Of a stretch of DNA of 58,315 nt, positions 17,179 through 52,324 are shown piece after piece; positions within the stretch are counted from its first letter, which is position 1; every line of letters begins with the position of its first letter. Position numbers and translations under genes: made by a program. Origin of the DNA: Comamonadaceae bacterium (GTDB taxonomy: Bacteria > Pseudomonadota > Gammaproteobacteria > Burkholderiales > Burkholderiaceae_C); assembly GCA_947451565.1 (NCBI GenBank), contig CANFZT010000002.1, positions 1-58,315 on the forward strand. The letters run 5' to 3'. The notes beneath the pieces were generated by a model. The model did no database searches. It had not been told where the DNA came from and worked only from the letters and a program-made list of their open reading frames with translations.

Positions 17179-17247
17179 TTTGCCTTAGATGTTTTGGTTA
17201 TTAACAACCAAAAACTCTGTAGTTCCCTTTTAGTGCGTCTGCGCTAA

Positions 17248-17278
17248 GAATCCATCCATTGCAAATGTAGATGGATTC
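17248..17278 (+). promoter_or_regulatory. 5'-leader hairpin just upstream of the Shine-Dalgarno of the orphan sulfate-binding protein gene
   Basis: GAATCCATC (17248-17256) / GATGGATTC (17270-17278), inner CATT-GCA-AATG; AAAGGG SD follows. Confidence 0.45.
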
Positions 17279-17291
17279 AAAGGGAACCAAA

Positions 17292-18305
17292 ATGATTCAA
17301 CGTAAAGACTTTCTCAAGACGCTTGCAGCCACCGCACTACTGGCTGTCACGGGTATTGCTGCAGCACAACCTGCGCCCGTCACACTGCTCAATGTGTCGT
17401 ACGACCCGACCCGCGAGTTGTACGTCGAATTCAACCAAGCATTTTCTAAGCAATGGAAAGCCAAGACGGGTCAAGACGTGACCATCAAACAATCGCATGG
17501 TGGCTCTGGCAAACAAGCTCGCTCCATCATCGATGGTTTGGACGCCGATGTGGCTACCCTCGCATTGGGCGGTGATACCGATGCTTTGCATGAGCACGGT
17601 GCGCTCATTCCTAAAGACTGGCAAAAGCGTTTGCCACACAACAGCTCTCCCTACACTTCGACCATTATCTTGGTGGTGCGCGAAGGCAACCCCAAAGGCA
17701 TCAAAGACTGGGACGACTTGGTCAAGCCCGGCATCAGCGTCATCACACCCAACCCTAAAACATCGGGTGGCGCTCGCTGGAACTACTTGGCCGCTTGGGA
17801 GTTTGCCAAACGTAAATATGGTGGTGATGCAAAAGCCAAAGACTTCGTGAAAAAACTCTACGAGAACGTGCCCGTGCTCGACACGGGTGCGCGCGGCTCC
17901 ACCATCACCTTTGCACAACGCAACCAAGGTGATGTGTTGATCGCTTGGGAAAACGAAGCCTACTTGCTCGAAAAAGAATTCGGTGCCAAGTTTGATGTGG
18001 TTGTGCCTTCCATCTCTATCCTTGCTGAACCTGCTGTGACCGTGGTGGACAAAAACGTGGACAAGAAGGGCACACGTGCCGTGTCGCAAGCGTATTTGGA
18101 ATACCTCTACAGCGACGAAGGCCAAGACATCGCTGGCAAAAACTTCTACCGTCCTACATCGCCGAAGGCGCAAGCCAAATACGCCAAACAGTTTCCTAAG
18201 CTGAACTTGGTCACCATCGACAAGTCGTTTGGCGGCTGGAACAAAGCCACCAAAGACCACTTTGCTGACGGCGCGAGCTTCGACCAAATCTATTTGAAGA
18301 AGTAA
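17292..18305 (+). CDS. sbp: Sulfate ABC transporter substrate-binding protein (orphan paralogue)
   Basis: [47 protein letters not shown]; paralogue of 53047-54039. Confidence 0.92.
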
Positions 18306-24262: not shown

Positions 24263-25615
24263 ATGCATATGACAACAATAAAAAAACAACTTCACCTGGG
24301 TGCTTTCTTTTTTGGCGCAGGCCACCACTTAGCGGCTTGGCGACACCCATCGGTCAATCCCAAGGATTACACCGATATTCAAACTTTGAAAGAATGGGCG
24401 AAATTGGCTGAGTCAGCCAAATTTGACGCCATATTTTTTGCAGACAACGTAGGGATGAGTGATGGGCCTGCTGACTTGCTCGCCCGTAATGCTTTGCCCT
24501 ATGTGTATGACCCCATCTTGCTGCAAACCGCGCTGGCTGGCGTCACTGAACGCATTGGCTTGGTGGCTACGGTGTCCACCACGTATTTGCCACCGTATCA
24601 CTTGGCACGCAAGTTTGCGACGTTGGATCACCTCAGTGGTGGGCGAAGCGGTTGGAATTTGGTGACCTCTGGCAGCGAGTTTGAAGCCAAAGCGTTTGGC
24701 TTGCCTCATCAGATTGAGCATGCACAACGTTACAAAATTGCACATGAGTATGTGAAGGTCGTCAAAGACCTGTGGGACTCGTGGGAAGACGATGCCTTTG
24801 TGCATGACCAAGCGCATAACCGATTTTTTGATTCTGCCAAGTTGCATCGTATCGATCACCAGGGTGAGAAATTCCGGGTCAGCGGGTCTTTGCAAGCGCC
24901 TCGCGCACCACAGGGCTACCCCGTGCTGGTGCAAGCTGGCTCATCCAATGACGGTCAAGATTTGGCTGCTGCCACCGCAGAAGTGGTCTTCACGGCCCAG
25001 CAAACGGTGGAGGATGCGCGTGCGTTCTACACCTCTTTGAAGTCACGCTTGCCGCACTGGGGTCGCAGCGAAAACGATTTGAAAATCATGCCAGGCATCT
25101 CACCTTTTGTGGGAAGAACCCAGGCAGAAGCGCAAGAAAAATTTGAACAGTTGCAAGACCTGATCGACCCTGTGTTGGGCGTGGGTTTGTTGTCTGGGTT
25201 TTTAGGTAACGTGGATTTGTCGGGCTATCCCATTGATGGGCCATTTCCAGTGGACCTGCCCGTTGGCGAAGGATGGAAGAGTCGACATGAATTGTTTAAC
25301 AAACTGGCTCAACGTGAAAACTTGAGCATCCGTGAACTCTACAAACGTGTGGCCACAGGGCGTGGTCATTGGACTTTGGTGGGAACGCCGGATTCAATCG
25401 CGGATGAGCTGGAGCATTGGTTTACCACGGGCGCTGCGGATGGCTTCAATATTTTGTCGCCTACTTTCCCGCATGGTTTGAAAGACTTTGCTGAGTTGGT
25501 GATTCCTGAGCTGCAACGTCGTGGACTGTTTCGTACAGCGTACGAAGGTCGAACCCTACGCGATCACTTGGGCTTGTCGCGTCCTGCGCATCCGCAAGCA
25601 AAGGCGGGTAAATGA
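24263..25615 (+). CDS. LLM-class flavin-dependent monooxygenase (NtaA/SnaA/DszA family), copy 1
   Basis: KKQLHLGAFFFGAGHHLAAWRHPSV, FDAIFFADNVG, SGGRSGWNLVTS, VLVQAGSSNDGQ; start at ATG 24263 or 24269. Confidence 0.92.
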   Translation: MHMTTIKKQLHLGAFFFGAGHHLAAWRHPSVNPKDYTDIQTLKEWAKLAESAKFDAIFFADNVGMSDGPADLLARNALPYVYDPILLQTALAGVTERIGLVATVSTTYLPPYHLARKFATLDHLSGGRSGWNLVTSGSEFEAKAFGLPHQIEHAQRYKIAHEYVKVVKDLWDSWEDDAFVHDQAHNRFFDSAKLHRIDHQGEKFRVSGSLQAPRAPQGYPVLVQAGSSNDGQDLAAATAEVVFTAQQTVEDARAFYTSLKSRLPHWGRSENDLKIMPGISPFVGRTQAEAQEKFEQLQDLIDPVLGVGLLSGFLGNVDLSGYPIDGPFPVDLPVGEGWKSRHELFNKLAQRENLSIRELYKRVATGRGHWTLVGTPDSIADELEHWFTTGAADGFNILSPTFPHGLKDFAELVIPELQRRGLFRTAYEGRTLRDHLGLSRPAHPQAKAGK

Positions 25616-26556
25616 ACATTCAGCAGCTTCGTGCCGTGCGCGAGACGGTTCGCAACGGCTTTAACTTGACCGAGGTGGCTGCCAAGCTATACACCTCACA
25701 GCCTGGTGTCAGCCGTCAAATTAGAGAGTTAGAGGAAGAAATTGGGTTTGACATTTTTGGCCGCAGTGGCAAGCGCCTCACAGGGTTGACCCCTCCGGGT
25801 CAATCGCTCTTGCCATTTGTCGAGCGCATTTTGATTGACTTAGAAAACATCAAACGTGTGGGCGGTGAGTTTTCATCTAAGCAAGAGGGGCGGTTGACGG
25901 TGGCGGCCACGCATTCGCAAGCGCGCTATGCATTGCCACATGTGGTGCGAGATTTTCGTGTGTTGTTTCCTAAGGTGAGCTTGCACTTGCATCAAGGCTC
26001 TCCTAAGCAAGTGGCAGAAATGTTGCTTAGTGGCGAGGTAGACATTGCTGTGGCTACCGAGGCCTTGGCGACCTACCCGCAGTTGGTGACATTGCCATGC
26101 TATCGGTGGACTCACAATGTGGTGGTGCCACCAGGTCATCCCTTGTTGGAGGTCAACGGGCCGATCACGCTGGCACAGTTGGCGCGTTACCCCATCATCA
26201 CGTATGAGCAAGGCTATACAGGTCGTTCACACATTGACGAAGCGTTTCTGAACGAAGGGCTGCACCCAGATGTGGTGCTCACGGCGATGGATGCCGATGT
26301 GATCAAAACCTATGTCGAGCTGGGCATGGGGGTGGGCATCATTGCATCTGTGGCTTTGGACGAAGAGCGTGACCAGAACCTTCGCATCTTGGATGGCCGT
26401 CATTTGTTTGAGGTCAACCAAACGCGCTTGGCCATTCGACGTGGCACTTGGCTCAGAGGCTTTGCTTACAGCTTCATCGAAACTTTTGTGCCAACTCTGA
26501 CACGTGCTGTGGTTGAAGAGGCTTTGCAAAACTCTGAAGCCATTGTCGAAGACTAG
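25612..26556 (+). CDS. CysB-family LysR-type regulator (CysB/Cbl/SsuR-like)
   Basis: MNIQQLRAVRETVRNGFNLTEVAAKLYTSQPGVSRQIRELEEEIGFDIFGRSGKRLTG is CysB-type. Confidence 0.93.
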   Translation: MNIQQLRAVRETVRNGFNLTEVAAKLYTSQPGVSRQIRELEEEIGFDIFGRSGKRLTGLTPPGQSLLPFVERILIDLENIKRVGGEFSSKQEGRLTVAATHSQARYALPHVVRDFRVLFPKVSLHLHQGSPKQVAEMLLSGEVDIAVATEALATYPQLVTLPCYRWTHNVVVPPGHPLLEVNGPITLAQLARYPIITYEQGYTGRSHIDEAFLNEGLHPDVVLTAMDADVIKTYVELGMGVGIIASVALDEERDQNLRILDGRHLFEVNQTRLAIRRGTWLRGFAYSFIETFVPTLTRAVVEEALQNSEAIVED

Positions 26557-34372: not shown

Positions 34373-35308
34373 TCAACGTGCAGACTGTGGACCTTTATTT
34401 AAGACGGCCGATACACGCTCGCCCCATCGATCTTCAGGGTAGTAGTCCCAAATGGCGCGATGTTGTACGGCCCAGTTGTCCCAAAACAGCAAGGTGCCGG
34501 GTTCCCACTTCACGCGGACTTGAAAGTGCGGGTTCTTCTCGATGTGCTGATACAAATGTTGCAGCACCGCAGTACTTTCTGCTGTGCTGAGCTCAACGAT
34601 GTGAGATGTGAAACCACTGTTGACGTACAGAAACTTTTGACCTGTGAATGGATGCTTGGCAACCACAGGGTGCGTTGCTGTTGGAAACGTCTTGCCTGCT
34701 TCAGGCTTGGTGCCGTAGCCAATGGTCCATGGCAGGGCACCATCATGCACGGCCGTGAGTCCTTCTAAGAACTGCTGATAGGCAGGGGAGAGTGATTCAT
34801 AAGCCAACACATTGTTGGCAAATGCCGTATCGCCTCCACCAAATTGAGGCAATCGAGTGACATGCAGAAACGATCCCCAAATGGGATGCGCATCACACGA
34901 TACATCGTTGTGCCAGCCTTCGCCTGCGGTGAATTCAGAATCTTTGGTTGTTTTCCAAGCCAAGACGTCAGGGTCAAACTCTTGGCTATCACCGAGTACC
35001 TTGGATGACTCTTGGCGCGCTTTGGCTAAAGCATGTCGGTGCAAAGTTCCAAAACGACGCACAAAGGCTTTGTGTTGTTCTCGGGTCAGTTGCTGATTGC
35101 GAAATGCGACGACCAAGTTTTCATGCATCGCTCTTCGGATTTCAGAAAATTGCGCATTTGAAATGTCTTTGGATAAATCCACGCCATGCACTTCTGCACC
35201 TAGCGTAGGCGTTAAGCGTCGAACCTCAATGTGTGTATAGGGTTTGCGTTCAATGCCATGCCAATTCAATAACGCTTTCTTGGCCAAGCTGTTCGGGTGG
35301 AGGCTCAT
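34373..35308 (-). CDS. TauD/TfdA family dioxygenase (copy 2)
   Basis: GWHNDVSCD (HxD), FGGGDTAFANNVLAYESL, NWAVQHRAIWDY; ORF extends to a TTG at 35362 but ATG 35308 is more plausible. Confidence 0.9.
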   Translation of the reverse strand: MSLHPNSLAKKALLNWHGIERKPYTHIEVRRLTPTLGAEVHGVDLSKDISNAQFSEIRRAMHENLVVAFRNQQLTREQHKAFVRRFGTLHRHALAKARQESSKVLGDSQEFDPDVLAWKTTKDSEFTAGEGWHNDVSCDAHPIWGSFLHVTRLPQFGGGDTAFANNVLAYESLSPAYQQFLEGLTAVHDGALPWTIGYGTKPEAGKTFPTATHPVVAKHPFTGQKFLYVNSGFTSHIVELSTAESTAVLQHLYQHIEKNPHFQVRVKWEPGTLLFWDNWAVQHRAIWDYYPEDRWGERVSAVLNKGPQSAR

Positions 35309-35344
35309 ACAGTCAATTTGTTTTGAAAAACTGACTGTATGAGC
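35303..35344. repeat. Perfect 13-bp inverted repeat, 16-bp spacer
   Basis: GCTCATACAGTCA (35303-35315) / TGACTGTATGAGC (35332-35344); contains the start codon of the minus-strand TauD gene. Confidence 0.85.
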
Positions 35345-35513
35345 GACAAGTTGATAAAGCAAAGAAGCTTTTCATCTATGGAGCTGAGAAATTCTCACAA
35401 CATGATTGCTTAGAAGTTTTTTGTATGTGAAGAGACAAATAAATTCCTTTACGTGGCACAGATCAAGCTGAAAAATCTTCAGAGATTGAAATCATTCTTA
35501 TGGAGGTATTCCA

Positions 35514-36854
35514 GTGACAACTGAAAAAAGGCAACTGCACTTGGGTGCATTTTTGCAAGGGGTAGGACATCATTTGGCTGCTTGGAGGCATCCTGACATT
35601 GATCCTTCCCATGCATTTAACTTGAATCATTTCAAAAATTTGGCACGGTTGGCTGAGTCCGCTAAATTTGATGCGATATTTTTTGCTGATAACTTGGGGC
35701 TGCCCAGCGCACCTGCGTCATTGCTTGCGAAAGCAGCCCCTGCGCACCCGTTTGATCCGTTACTGTTGTTGTCAGCCTTGACCTCAGTCACTGAGCGAAT
35801 TGGCCTGGTTGGGACCGTATCTACAACTTACCTGCCACCTTATCACTTGGCGCGTAAATTTGCCTCTTTGGATCACTTCAGCAATGGCCGTAGTGGATGG
35901 AATTTGGTCACTTCGGGCACAGATTTCGAAGCAAAGAATTTCGGACTTGACCAACAAATCAGTCATGCAAGCCGCTATGCACGGGCAGCTGAATATGTGG
36001 ATGTTGTCAAACACTTGTGGGACAGCTGGGAAGACGAGTCAGTGGCCTACAACCAATCAAGTGCTCAATTTCTAAAGCCACACACATTACACCGAGTGGA
36101 CCATCAAGGCCAACACTTCAAAGTCGAGGGTGCACTGCAAGCGCCTCGCCCTGTGCAAGGGTACCCAGTATTTGTGCAAGCCGGTTCATCTGATGATGGA
36201 CAAGATTTGGCGGCTGCGACTGCAGAGGTTGTTTTTACTGCTCAGCAAACCGTTGAAGATGCGAGGGCTTTCTATCAAAGCTTGAAGGCTAGGGTTGCTA
36301 AGTTTGGACGCAACCCAGATGCTGTGAAAGTATTGCCTGGAATTTCCCCCTACGTAGGTAAGACAGATGCCGAAGCGCAAGAAAAGTTTGAACAACTTCA
36401 ATCCCTGATTGACCCAGAGGTCGGTTTGGGCTTGCTGTCGGGCTTTATTGGGGGAAGCGTTGACTTCTCTAAATATCCCTTAGACGGACCACTCCCAGAG
36501 CTGCCAGCGACAGAAGGGTGGCAGAGTCGGCAGGAATTATTTGTGAAGTTGGCTAAGCGTGACAACTTGTCAATTCGGCAGCTATACCAACGCATCGCTG
36601 CCGCGAGAGGTCATGCCACGGTGATTGGCACGCCGCAAAGTATTGCAGACCAGTTAGAGCACTGGTTTAGTACCGAGGCGGCAGACGGATTCAATATCTT
36701 GGCACCTACGTTGCCTTATGGATTGGAGGACTTCGCGCAGTTGGTCATTCCTGAATTGCAAAAACGAGGCTTGTTTAGAACGCAATACACAGGGCGAACC
36801 TTGCGTGAGCACTTGGGCCTGGCACGGCCTGAACATCCCCATCTGAATTTTTAA
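35514..36854 (+). CDS. LLM-class flavin-dependent monooxygenase (NtaA/SnaA/DszA family), copy 2
   Basis: Paralogue of 24263-25615 along its full length; GTG start with GGAGG. Confidence 0.92.
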   Translation: MTTEKRQLHLGAFLQGVGHHLAAWRHPDIDPSHAFNLNHFKNLARLAESAKFDAIFFADNLGLPSAPASLLAKAAPAHPFDPLLLLSALTSVTERIGLVGTVSTTYLPPYHLARKFASLDHFSNGRSGWNLVTSGTDFEAKNFGLDQQISHASRYARAAEYVDVVKHLWDSWEDESVAYNQSSAQFLKPHTLHRVDHQGQHFKVEGALQAPRPVQGYPVFVQAGSSDDGQDLAAATAEVVFTAQQTVEDARAFYQSLKARVAKFGRNPDAVKVLPGISPYVGKTDAEAQEKFEQLQSLIDPEVGLGLLSGFIGGSVDFSKYPLDGPLPELPATEGWQSRQELFVKLAKRDNLSIRQLYQRIAAARGHATVIGTPQSIADQLEHWFSTEAADGFNILAPTLPYGLEDFAQLVIPELQKRGLFRTQYTGRTLREHLGLARPEHPHLNF

Positions 36855-36871: not shown

Positions 36872-37930
36872 ATGAAGAAGAAATTATTTGTACTGTTGAC
36901 GGGAGCCTTGTTACTTCTATTCGCTCAAGCGCAAACAACGCCACAGGTCATTCGTATTGGTGTGGCTACCCCAGGTGTTGGTAGTCCTGTTCGCACAGGG
37001 GGATCTAGTACATCAGTTGCCTATTCAGAGAAAGCATTTGAGGAAGAATTTAAAAAAGACAACACCAAGATTGAATGGATCTTCTTCAAGGGTGCAGGCC
37101 CTGCTGTGAATGAGGCCCTAGTCAACAAGCAAATTGATTTTGCATGGCAGGGCGATTTGCCATCGATCGTGCATCGTAGCAACCAAGTCAAAACCAAAAT
37201 TATTCTGGGAAGTGGTGTTCGAGGTGGTTTGTATTTGGGGGTGTCGCCTGACTCAACCATCAAAGGGATTGAGGACTTGCGAGGTAAGCGTGTGGCTGTT
37301 TTCAAGGGCACCAATTTGCACCTAGCAGCTGTGCGTGCGCTCGCTGACAAAGGCATTTCGGAGCGAGATGTGAAGCTGGTTAACTTAGATCCAGCAACTG
37401 CAGCAGCGGCATTGGTGGCGCACGATTTAGATGCTGTGTTTGACTATGTCGGTGTGTTCCAACTGCGAGACAAGGGGTTGGCCAAAATCATCTGGTCAGC
37501 GCATGAGGATTCATTCAAATACACACGCCAAGCGGCTTTGTTGGTTACCGATGAGTTTGCGCAGAAATATCCTAATACGGTTGAGCGTGTGGTCAAGGTG
37601 GTGGTCAAGTATGCGTACAAATACTCGAACGAAGCTCGGCGTGCGGAATTGTTTGAAACATGGGGTAAGGCTGAATATCCAGAGGGTATATGGCGTGAAG
37701 ACTTTGTTGGCCAGCCTTTAAAGGTGCGTTTTTCACCCTTGCTTGACCCGTTTCTTGTGGCCCGATACGAGGACTCAGCCAATGAGGCATATAACCTGAA
37801 ACTGATTCGCTCTAAGCCTGAAATCGCCTCTTGGTTTGACCGTCGCTATTTGAATGCTGCGTTGAAAGAGTTGAAGCTCGAAGGGTTTTGGCCTGAGTAC
37901 GCAGCCAATGGCAAACAAGTAGGACGCTGA
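36872..37930 (+). CDS. ABC transporter substrate-binding protein (AtsR-like, orphan)
   Basis: Signal peptide; VIRIGVATPGVGSPVRTGGSS, WIFFKGAGPAVNEAL; paralogue of 30193-31290. Confidence 0.88.
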   Translation: MKKKLFVLLTGALLLLFAQAQTTPQVIRIGVATPGVGSPVRTGGSSTSVAYSEKAFEEEFKKDNTKIEWIFFKGAGPAVNEALVNKQIDFAWQGDLPSIVHRSNQVKTKIILGSGVRGGLYLGVSPDSTIKGIEDLRGKRVAVFKGTNLHLAAVRALADKGISERDVKLVNLDPATAAAALVAHDLDAVFDYVGVFQLRDKGLAKIIWSAHEDSFKYTRQAALLVTDEFAQKYPNTVERVVKVVVKYAYKYSNEARRAELFETWGKAEYPEGIWREDFVGQPLKVRFSPLLDPFLVARYEDSANEAYNLKLIRSKPEIASWFDRRYLNAALKELKLEGFWPEYAANGKQVGR

Positions 37931-37953
37931 TCACTACGTTGTTGTTGGATAAA

Positions 37954-37984
37954 AAAATGCCCGGCTAAGCCGGGCATTTTTGAT
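37954..37984. terminator. Bidirectional rho-independent terminator
   Basis: AAAATGCCCGGC-TAA-GCCGGGCATTTT between convergent genes; perfect 12-bp stem. Confidence 0.95.
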
Positions 37985-49404: not shown

Positions 49405-50334
49405 ATGTCGGAACAAACATCTTCTCAGCTCGCGCTGAGCGACAACGCTGCACGTCAGCTAGCCAACGCCACCAAAACGGTCCCCATTCTGTCGACTATC
49501 AGCCCACGTTGGTTGACACACTTGCTGCAATGGTCACCTGTGGAAGCTGGTATCTATCGCTTGAACAAAGTGAAGAACCCAGAAGACGTGCTCGTGGCAT
49601 GCGCCAAACGCGATGAGTCTGAGCTGCCACAAACCTTTGTGGATTACGAAGACCAACCCCGTGAGTACTTCCTCAATGCGGTGTCCACCGTGCTCGACGT
49701 GCACACCCGCGTGAGCGACTTGTACAGCAGTCCACACGACCAGATCAAAGAGCAATTGCGCTTGACGATCGAGACCATCAAAGAAAAACAAGAGAGCGAA
49801 CTCATCAACAACCCTGACTACGGTTTGTTGGCCAGCGTCGCCCCTGAGCAAGTGGTTTACCCACTCACCGGTGCACCCACACCTGACGACTTGGACGAGT
49901 TGTTGACCAAAGTATGGAAAGAACCCGCCTTCTTCTTGACGCACCCCTTGGCCATCGCTGCTTTTGGTCGCGAGTGCACACGCCGTGGTGTGCCTCCACC
50001 GACCGTGAGCTTGTTTGGTTCACAGTTCCTCACATGGCGCGGAATCCCTCTGATTCCTAGCGACAAAGTGCCAGTGGCTGACGGCAAAACCAAAATCTTG
50101 CTGTTGCGCGTGGGCGAAAAACGCCAAGGCGTGGTGGGTGTGTATCAGCCAGGTTTGGCTGGCGAACAAAGCCCAGGTTTGTCTGTGCGTTTTATGGGCA
50201 TCAACCGCAGCGCGATTGCGTCCTACTTGATCAGCTTGTATTGCTCGCTGGTGGTGCAGTCTGACGATGCGTTGGCTGTGTTGGAAGATGTTGAGATTGG
50301 CAAGTTCCATGAGTATCCAGACACTTACAAGTGA
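49405..50334 (+). CDS. Family 2A encapsulin shell protein (SrpI-like)
   Basis: QLALSDNAARQLANATKTVPILSTISPRWLTHLLQWSPVEAGIYRLNKVKNPE, HTRVSDLYSSPHDQIKEQLRLTIETIKE, GIPLIPSDKVPVADGKTKILLLRVGEKRQGVVGVYQPGL; matches recalled SrpI/MMP-I family sequence. Confidence 0.95.
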   Translation: MSEQTSSQLALSDNAARQLANATKTVPILSTISPRWLTHLLQWSPVEAGIYRLNKVKNPEDVLVACAKRDESELPQTFVDYEDQPREYFLNAVSTVLDVHTRVSDLYSSPHDQIKEQLRLTIETIKEKQESELINNPDYGLLASVAPEQVVYPLTGAPTPDDLDELLTKVWKEPAFFLTHPLAIAAFGRECTRRGVPPPTVSLFGSQFLTWRGIPLIPSDKVPVADGKTKILLLRVGEKRQGVVGVYQPGLAGEQSPGLSVRFMGINRSAIASYLISLYCSLVVQSDDALAVLEDVEIGKFHEYPDTYK

Positions 50335-52324
50335 AGTTCACAGCCCGTTAGACGTTGGCGCTTTGGCGCAACTCGCGGGTCAGTTCTTTGCTGCATTGCC
50401 AGGTGAACGTGCTGAGCCGCAGACGGCACTGAATGTGGCGCCTTCGCCTACCGCCTTGGGCGGTGTATCTGCGCCTGTGAATGTGTTGCCAGCTGGCTCA
50501 TCGCTGGGCCCCTTAGGTAACGGCCCACAGTTGCCGGGCACGATTGCGCCCGGTGCCAATGCCGCACCTCAGTCGCCGCAAAGCGTGTTGAACCTCGGTG
50601 CGTCTTCCCCATCCTTGGTGCCACACTCTGCTGCGCCGAATGGTGTGCCTGACCATGCCTCCATCGTGCCGCCTGCTGTGGATGGTCGTGTGGGCAGTGG
50701 CTCACTCGGTGTGCCACAGGCTTACGCGCCTTCGCTGCCCGCAGTGGGTGGTGCCTCGCCTGAGCGAGCTGAGGCCATTGGCCCTGCGCACCAGCGTTCA
50801 CCTGCGCCCTCGACGCCCTACTACTTCTTGGGTGAGTCCGCGGGGTACCCCACTACAGTGCAAAGCTTTGACGTGCCGCGCGAAGACCGTGTGTCTGCGC
50901 AGTCGTTTGGCTTGCCGGGGGCCGATGACTTGCGTGCGTTGCTGGGTGAAAACCCACGACACCAAGCGCAGCCGTTGCCTGCACATGCACCCACCACCGC
51001 CACTGAGCGGCCCACATCGCCTTATTACTTTGCACAACCCACGCGACAAGCGCACGGGTTTTCAGAGCGTGTGCCACAAGCTGACGAGGCCCGGCATCCG
51101 GGCTTTGACGTGCATGCGGTGCGCCGTGATTTTCCCGTCTTGCAAGAGCGTGTGAATGGCAAACAGTTGGTGTGGTTTGACAACGCGGCTACTACGCACA
51201 AACCGCAATCGGTGATTGATCGCATTGCTTACTTCTATGCCCACGAGAATTCCAATATTCACCGTGCGGCCCACGAGTTAGCAGCGCGTGCCACCGATGC
51301 TTACGAAGGTGCCCGCGAAAAAGTGCGTGCCTTCTTGGGTGCAGGTTCAGTCGAAGAAATCATCTTTGTGCGCGGTGCCACCGAAGCCATCAACTTGGTG
51401 GCCAAGACTTGGGGCTGGCAAAACGTGGGTGAGGGCGATGAAATCATCGTCTCTAACCTTGAACACCATGCCAACATCGTGCCTTGGCAACAGTTGGCTG
51501 CAGCCAAAGGTGCCAAGCTCAAAGTCATTCCTGTGGATGACAGCGGCCAAGTGCTGCTGGACGAATACAAGAAGCTCTTGAGCGACCGCACCAAGATTGT
51601 GTCGGTCACGCAAGTCTCGAACGCTTTGGGCACCGTGGTGCCTGTGAAAGAGATCGTCGACTTGGCCCATCGCGCAGGTGCTGTAGCTTTGGTGGATGGC
51701 GCGCAATCGGTGAGTCACATGCGTGTGAACGTGCAAGAAATTGGTGCTGACTTCTTTGTGTTCTCCGGGCACAAAGTGTTTGGCCCCACTGGCATTGGCG
51801 TGGTGTATGGCCGTCGTGAGTTGCTCGACGACATGCCACCTTGGCAGGGCGGCGGCAACATGATTGCCGACGTGACTTTTGAGCGCACGTTGTTCCAACC
51901 ACCGCCCAACAAGTTTGAGGCTGGCACCGGCAACATTGCTGATGCTGTGGGTTTGGGCGCTGCGATTGACTATGTGCAACGCATTGGCATGGAAAACATC
52001 GCACGCTACGAGCATGACTTGTTGGTCTATGCCACACACCACTTGAAGCCGATTCCTGGCGTTCGCTTAGTGGGCACGGCCCATGAGAAGGCGAGTGTGT
52101 TGTCGTTTGTGTTGCAGGGCTACACCACCGAAGAAGTGGGCAAGGCCATGAATGCAGAAGGCATTGCGGTGCGAACCGGTCACCATTGCGCGCAGCCTAT
52201 TTTGCGTCGCTTTGGTTTGGAAACCACGGTGCGCCCATCGCTGGCGTTTTACAACACCTGCGAAGAGGTGGACCGCATGATTGCGGTGGTACGCCGCCTC
52301 AGTGGCAGTCGTGCTAAGTCTTAA
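50309..52324 (+). CDS. Family 2A encapsulin cargo cysteine desulfurase (SufS-like with about 265-aa N-terminal disordered cargo domain)
   Basis: C-terminal SufS-type domain (WFDNAATTHKP, GATEAINLV, SGHKVFGPTGIGVVYG, RTGHHCAQP); N-terminal Pro/Ala/Ser-rich region; overlaps shell gene by 26 bp. Confidence 0.95.
   Translation: MSIQTLTSEVHSPLDVGALAQLAGQFFAALPGERAEPQTALNVAPSPTALGGVSAPVNVLPAGSSLGPLGNGPQLPGTIAPGANAAPQSPQSVLNLGASSPSLVPHSAAPNGVPDHASIVPPAVDGRVGSGSLGVPQAYAPSLPAVGGASPERAEAIGPAHQRSPAPSTPYYFLGESAGYPTTVQSFDVPREDRVSAQSFGLPGADDLRALLGENPRHQAQPLPAHAPTTATERPTSPYYFAQPTRQAHGFSERVPQADEARHPGFDVHAVRRDFPVLQERVNGKQLVWFDNAATTHKPQSVIDRIAYFYAHENSNIHRAAHELAARATDAYEGAREKVRAFLGAGSVEEIIFVRGATEAINLVAKTWGWQNVGEGDEIIVSNLEHHANIVPWQQLAAAKGAKLKVIPVDDSGQVLLDEYKKLLSDRTKIVSVTQVSNALGTVVPVKEIVDLAHRAGAVALVDGAQSVSHMRVNVQEIGADFFVFSGHKVFGPTGIGVVYGRRELLDDMPPWQGGGNMIADVTFERTLFQPPPNKFEAGTGNIADAVGLGAAIDYVQRIGMENIARYEHDLLVYATHHLKPIPGVRLVGTAHEKASVLSFVLQGYTTEEVGKAMNAEGIAVRTGHHCAQPILRRFGLETTVRPSLAFYNTCEEVDRMIAVVRRLSGSRAKS

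Follow-up and report, generated by a model that had tools for sequence, protein, structure and literature searches.

How translation initiates at a start codon held in one arm of a long inverted repeat is the question raised by TauD2, a gene for a 311-aa TauD/TfdA-family dioxygenase (34373-35308, minus strand) in a 58,315-nucleotide stretch of Comamonadaceae DNA, analyzed at full length and referred to here as the window. TauD2 heads a run comprising TauD2, quinone reductase, and GST, opposite a divergent NtaA/DmoA-family FMN-dependent (LLM) monooxygenase gene (35514-36854, plus strand) with a GTG start and the Shine-Dalgarno (SD) sequence GGAGG. The perfect 13-bp inverted repeat that an earlier note had described around the TauD2 start is found at exactly the reported place (35303-35344), with the form GCTCATACAGTCA-N16-TGACTGTATGAGC and perfect 13-mer arms at 35303-35315 and 35332-35344. 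Its outer end lies 169 nt from the GTG start (35514), in agreement with the distance of about 170 bp given previously. Extended inward, the repeat spans 35303-35319 and 35328-35344, with 17 nt per arm, one mismatch, and an 8-nt loop (35320-35327, minus strand). In the sense of the TauD2 mRNA, the 5' arm is GCTCATACAGTCAGTTT (35328-35344, minus strand), of which the outer 13 nt (35332-35344) are perfect, and the 3' arm is AAATTGACTGTATGAGC (35303-35319, minus strand), which includes the start and Ser2 codons; as claimed, the ATG (35306-35308, minus strand) lies in this arm when the minus-strand RNA folds. The single mismatched position is G.U in the minus-strand RNA, where the predicted fold is an uninterrupted stem of 17 bp (16 Watson-Crick pairs and one G·U, -23.9 kcal/mol), and A.C in the plus-strand RNA, whose stem is predicted at -21.4 kcal/mol. 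This one position weakly suggests a minus-strand preference of the hairpin.

As judged by homology, the ATG at 35308-35306 is the true TauD2 start, since orthologs all begin at the same Met-Ser. Met-Ser occupies the homologous position at 18 distinct orthologous loci of other genera, and the first 90 columns of a seven-sequence alignment of the N-terminus are gap-free. An upstream TTG (35362) is ruled out as the start because orthologs begin at the ATG. TauD2 has an intact reading frame that retains the metal-binding HxD (HND) and the distal His, but its score falls far under the curated cut-off for taurine dioxygenase proper. The lack of an SD before the ATG is confirmed for the preceding 20 nt (TTTCAAAACAAATTGACTGT). 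This lack is ordinary for the genome and carries little weight, since 450 of 794 ORFs of at least 200 aa (57%) lack a 4-nt SD core at all of their candidate starts.

The repeat itself exceeds chance expectation. With a quality criterion of at least 16/17 pairs and a loop of up to 30, a calibration sample of 1.1 Mb of stretches from the same genome contains 17 repeats of equal quality (about 15 per Mb), and mononucleotide shuffles of 450 kb of the genome contain none. Many of the 17 are terminator-like intergenic hairpins, several of them A/T-flanked, or members of one dispersed repeat family, and only the TauD2 repeat lies over a start codon that homology supports. Opening positions -12 to +13 at the TauD2 start is predicted to take 23.0 kcal/mol, where the mean is 8.3 (sd 4.1). 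This places it third of 765 starts, and the two costlier ones were assigned heuristically, without a homology check. When the total folding energy of -50 to +30 is ranked instead, TauD2 comes only 47th of 765, since G+C content is higher in other regions.

The reading favored here, tentatively and with slightly under even confidence, is that of a lineage-specific mRNA hairpin that occludes the start codon in the 5' region of the transcript covering TauD2, quinone reductase, and GST. In the predicted ensemble, the unpaired probability of the ATG is ~0.001 (about 0.1% of the ensemble) for transcripts with 5' ends between 35400 and 35344, rising to about 0.5-0.99 for transcripts whose 5' end lies at or downstream of 35336. 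The earlier proposal that the hairpin sequesters initiation is partly supported: in a transcript that begins at or upstream of 35344, the predicted fold pairs the ATG. If transcription begins upstream of 35344, the 3' arm would pair the TauD2 start and free ribosomes would initiate poorly; the hairpin, if transcribed, probably affects TauD2 translation. An escape would be available if transcription began inside the repeat, with the ATG predicted to be mostly free from 35336 downstream. No good promoter is found for a start inside the repeat, and the only upstream candidate is a weak sigma-70-like promoter, TTCACA-18-AATCAT (35402-35431, minus strand), which would place the hairpin inside the transcript and is at chance level, about as many being expected at random.

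Upstream translation would be the most economical way to open the hairpin. A putative 20-codon upstream ORF, MKSFFALSTCRSYSQFFKTN (35313-35375, minus strand; ATG at 35375; no SD), extends across the 5' arm and the loop, with its stop codon ending 4 nt ahead of the TauD2 ATG; a ribosome terminating there would melt the stem and could reinitiate. Translational coupling works by RNA-unfolding or reinitiation models (reviewed in PMC12548453), and the resemblance lies in a stem that hides the start, as the predicted fold does for TauD2 in the manner of a coupled leader, in an upstream ORF that crosses the stem, and in a 4-nt spacing at which coupling is efficient. In contrast to such systems, the ORF ahead of TauD2 is very short and SD-less, and it is not conserved, the arrangement being missing at ortholog starts. 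An ATG ORF in the same arrangement also arises in 29% of leaders in which the sequence upstream of the hairpin is shuffled, and its presence alone is therefore not evidence of coupling. In a cysteine attenuator, a run of Cys codons is expected; the upstream ORF, with its single Cys codon, is unlike this. Transcription of the 5' arm, lowered initiation by the fold, translation of the upstream ORF, and any link to sulfur supply are what we infer under the occlusion reading, and a condition-responsive translational switch that controls a taurine-dioxygenase-type operon, with the leader peptide being translated to open the 17-bp hairpin over the SD-less start, seems quite improbable.

Riboswitch expression platforms and RNA thermometers share with TauD2 an initiation region that is paired in the default predicted fold. 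Their stems, however, are marginal and switchable, whereas the TauD2 stem is a near-perfect 17-bp helix with no competing fold in the centroid. The window contains no Rfam match at the curated gathering score, other matches being only chance-level microRNA far under that score. The TauD2 hairpin is best described as start-codon occlusion of a known kind, and no membership among riboswitches, thermometers, attenuators, or operators is claimed for it.

The same hairpin may instead have no regulatory role and be a by-product of recent mutation, in which template switching placed a reverse-complement copy of a short stretch around the start codon just upstream of it and the resulting hairpin has been tolerated because the gene is weakly needed, because transcription starts inside the repeat, or because initiation happens anyway. 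This explanation is a serious possibility, although we lean against it. The 5' arm is the part needing explanation, because the encoded protein constrains the first two codons, which lie in the 3' arm. The ATGAGC end of that arm is ancestral coding sequence (the M-S codons are invariant), making the 5' arm the likelier new copy. Perfect hairpins are known to arise from template switching during replication in a single step (PMC8794818), and the TauD2 repeat resembles such hairpins as a near-perfect reverse-complement copy at short distance in one lineage only. It differs from them in that its origin is not reconstructable here without a repeat-free close relative, and the event is inferred without a repeat-free ancestral sequence. 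Ortholog leaders lack the repeat but are not alignable with the TauD2 leader. Moreover, if the gene is in use, a stem over its start should carry a cost, and the intact frame with its metal-binding residues speaks against the by-product explanation. The hairpin was possibly born in one template-switch event, an origin that is compatible with an effect on translation and not an alternative to it.

The distribution of the repeat bears on both explanations. The search for the same repeat elsewhere in the genome, advised in the earlier note, returns no second copy, and the paired motif is missing from 84 genus and 401 family genomes. No inverted repeat of at least 8 bp crosses the start at any of the 18 distinct orthologous TauD loci, and viral contigs contain neither an exact match nor a relative. 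Absence from orthologous loci, one of two outcomes that the earlier note would count against its proposal, holds at all TauD ortholog starts examined, but these sit in other neighborhoods: at several of the loci TauD2 lies behind sulfonate transporter genes and not, as in the window, at the head of a separate run that faces the LLM gene. Other genus genomes contain no LLM relative with E <= 1e-100, and the LLM relatives retrieved have neither a divergent TauD2 neighbor within the retrieved stretch nor an inverted repeat of at least 10 bp just upstream. With only one sequence carrying the repeat, pairing changes cannot be compared for covariation.

Alignment indicates that the TauD2/LLM part of the window is missing at the same site in five of five relatives, a setting that fits a by-product and leaves no orthologous leader for comparison; no orthologous intergenic region is present in the collections searched. 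In one relative, window position 18279 directly abuts 51284, and another has a gap between 24228 and 52377. The TauD2/LLM segment is AT-richer, with a GC of about 0.49-0.52 compared to 0.57-0.59 at the window's start. From these alignments, gain of the segment here and loss in the relatives cannot be told apart. Evidence for a conserved regulatory system around the hairpin is absent.

The wider region, about 18280-52390, is an organosulfur gene block encompassing transporters, LLM monooxygenases, two TauD-family genes, a sulfatase, a TonB-dependent receptor, and a CysB-family regulator. The block is AT-richer than the window's start and largely absent at the same site in five relatives, one of which has the part at 18.3-24.2 kb. 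A family 2A encapsulin shell protein followed by a cysteine desulfurase cargo protein is encoded at 49405-52324. The leader of the sulfate-binding protein gene (17214-17295) contains the inverted repeats GTTCCCTTT/AAAGGGAAC and AATCCATC/GATGGATT beside the start at 17292. Within this leader, TCGTTCCCTTTT is kept in most genus relatives, including ones without the partner arm, which suggests a conserved promoter or an element of CysB type. Pairing with the ribosome-binding site was considered for this gene (ATG 17292) and rejected: the upstream arm GTTCCCTTTT seems to act as promoter DNA and not as one side of an RNA stem, since it is conserved in relatives that lost the partner arm.

An operator overlapping the TauD2 start, the other function proposed in the earlier note, would require a dimeric regulator that, when bound to the 42-bp dyad, represses TauD2 and perhaps also the divergent LLM gene at a distance of 169 bp. 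In its favor, the dyad is long and perfect and separates divergent genes that belong to one pathway, and a CysB-family regulator is encoded at 25612-26556. Against this, no second paired copy exists in the genome, in the 84 genus genomes, or in the 401 family genomes, a half-site search of the window and of these genomes gave no support, with fewer matches in the window than the chance mean, and the dyad does not recur before co-regulated genes or in relatives. No regulator gene adjoins the divergent pair, and another palindrome, TGAGAAATTCTCA (35385-35397), is better placed; perfect, unique in the window, and of T-N11-A form, it lies in the TauD2/LLM intergenic region as a possible, speculative LysR-type site. 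The operator is accordingly unlikely.

A terminator, dispersed repeat, or assembly artefact is highly improbable: hairpins of equal quality do occur at the genomic frequency given above, many of them terminators between genes or members of one repeat family, but the tails of this one, CTCCACCC (minus) and GACAAGTT (plus), have no T run on either side, no gene ends there, its single copy rules out a dispersed palindrome (REP/MITE type) or mobile element, and both flanking reading frames are intact and run away from the repeat.

Hairpins of these other kinds are present elsewhere. A 14-bp perfect terminator-like hairpin, AAAAATGCCCGGCT/AGCCGGGCATTTTT (37953-37981), lies between convergent genes ending at 37930 and 38004. 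Outside the window, the same genome contains a dispersed hairpin family with a conserved core, CTGGNGTACCAGAAATC, and long, variable, mutually complementary arms, at L045 (17794-17852 and about 17930-18000), L054 (about 12200), L055 (8640-8701), L074 (14-73), L076 (11351-11410 and 11459-11520), and L079 (about 121). Some copies are inverted pairs 100-200 bp apart, and no Rfam match is found at the family's positions. The core has 11 exact matches in the genome and 10 in the close relative G009, with none in nine other genus genomes and none for the reversed control.

Neither a functional nor an accidental outcome at TauD2 would surprise a specialist. If the hairpin is an accident, it would illustrate that a single event can put a hairpin over a start codon. 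If it is functional, it would provide a natural case of start-codon occlusion in organosulfur scavenging, possibly opened by translation of a leader ORF.
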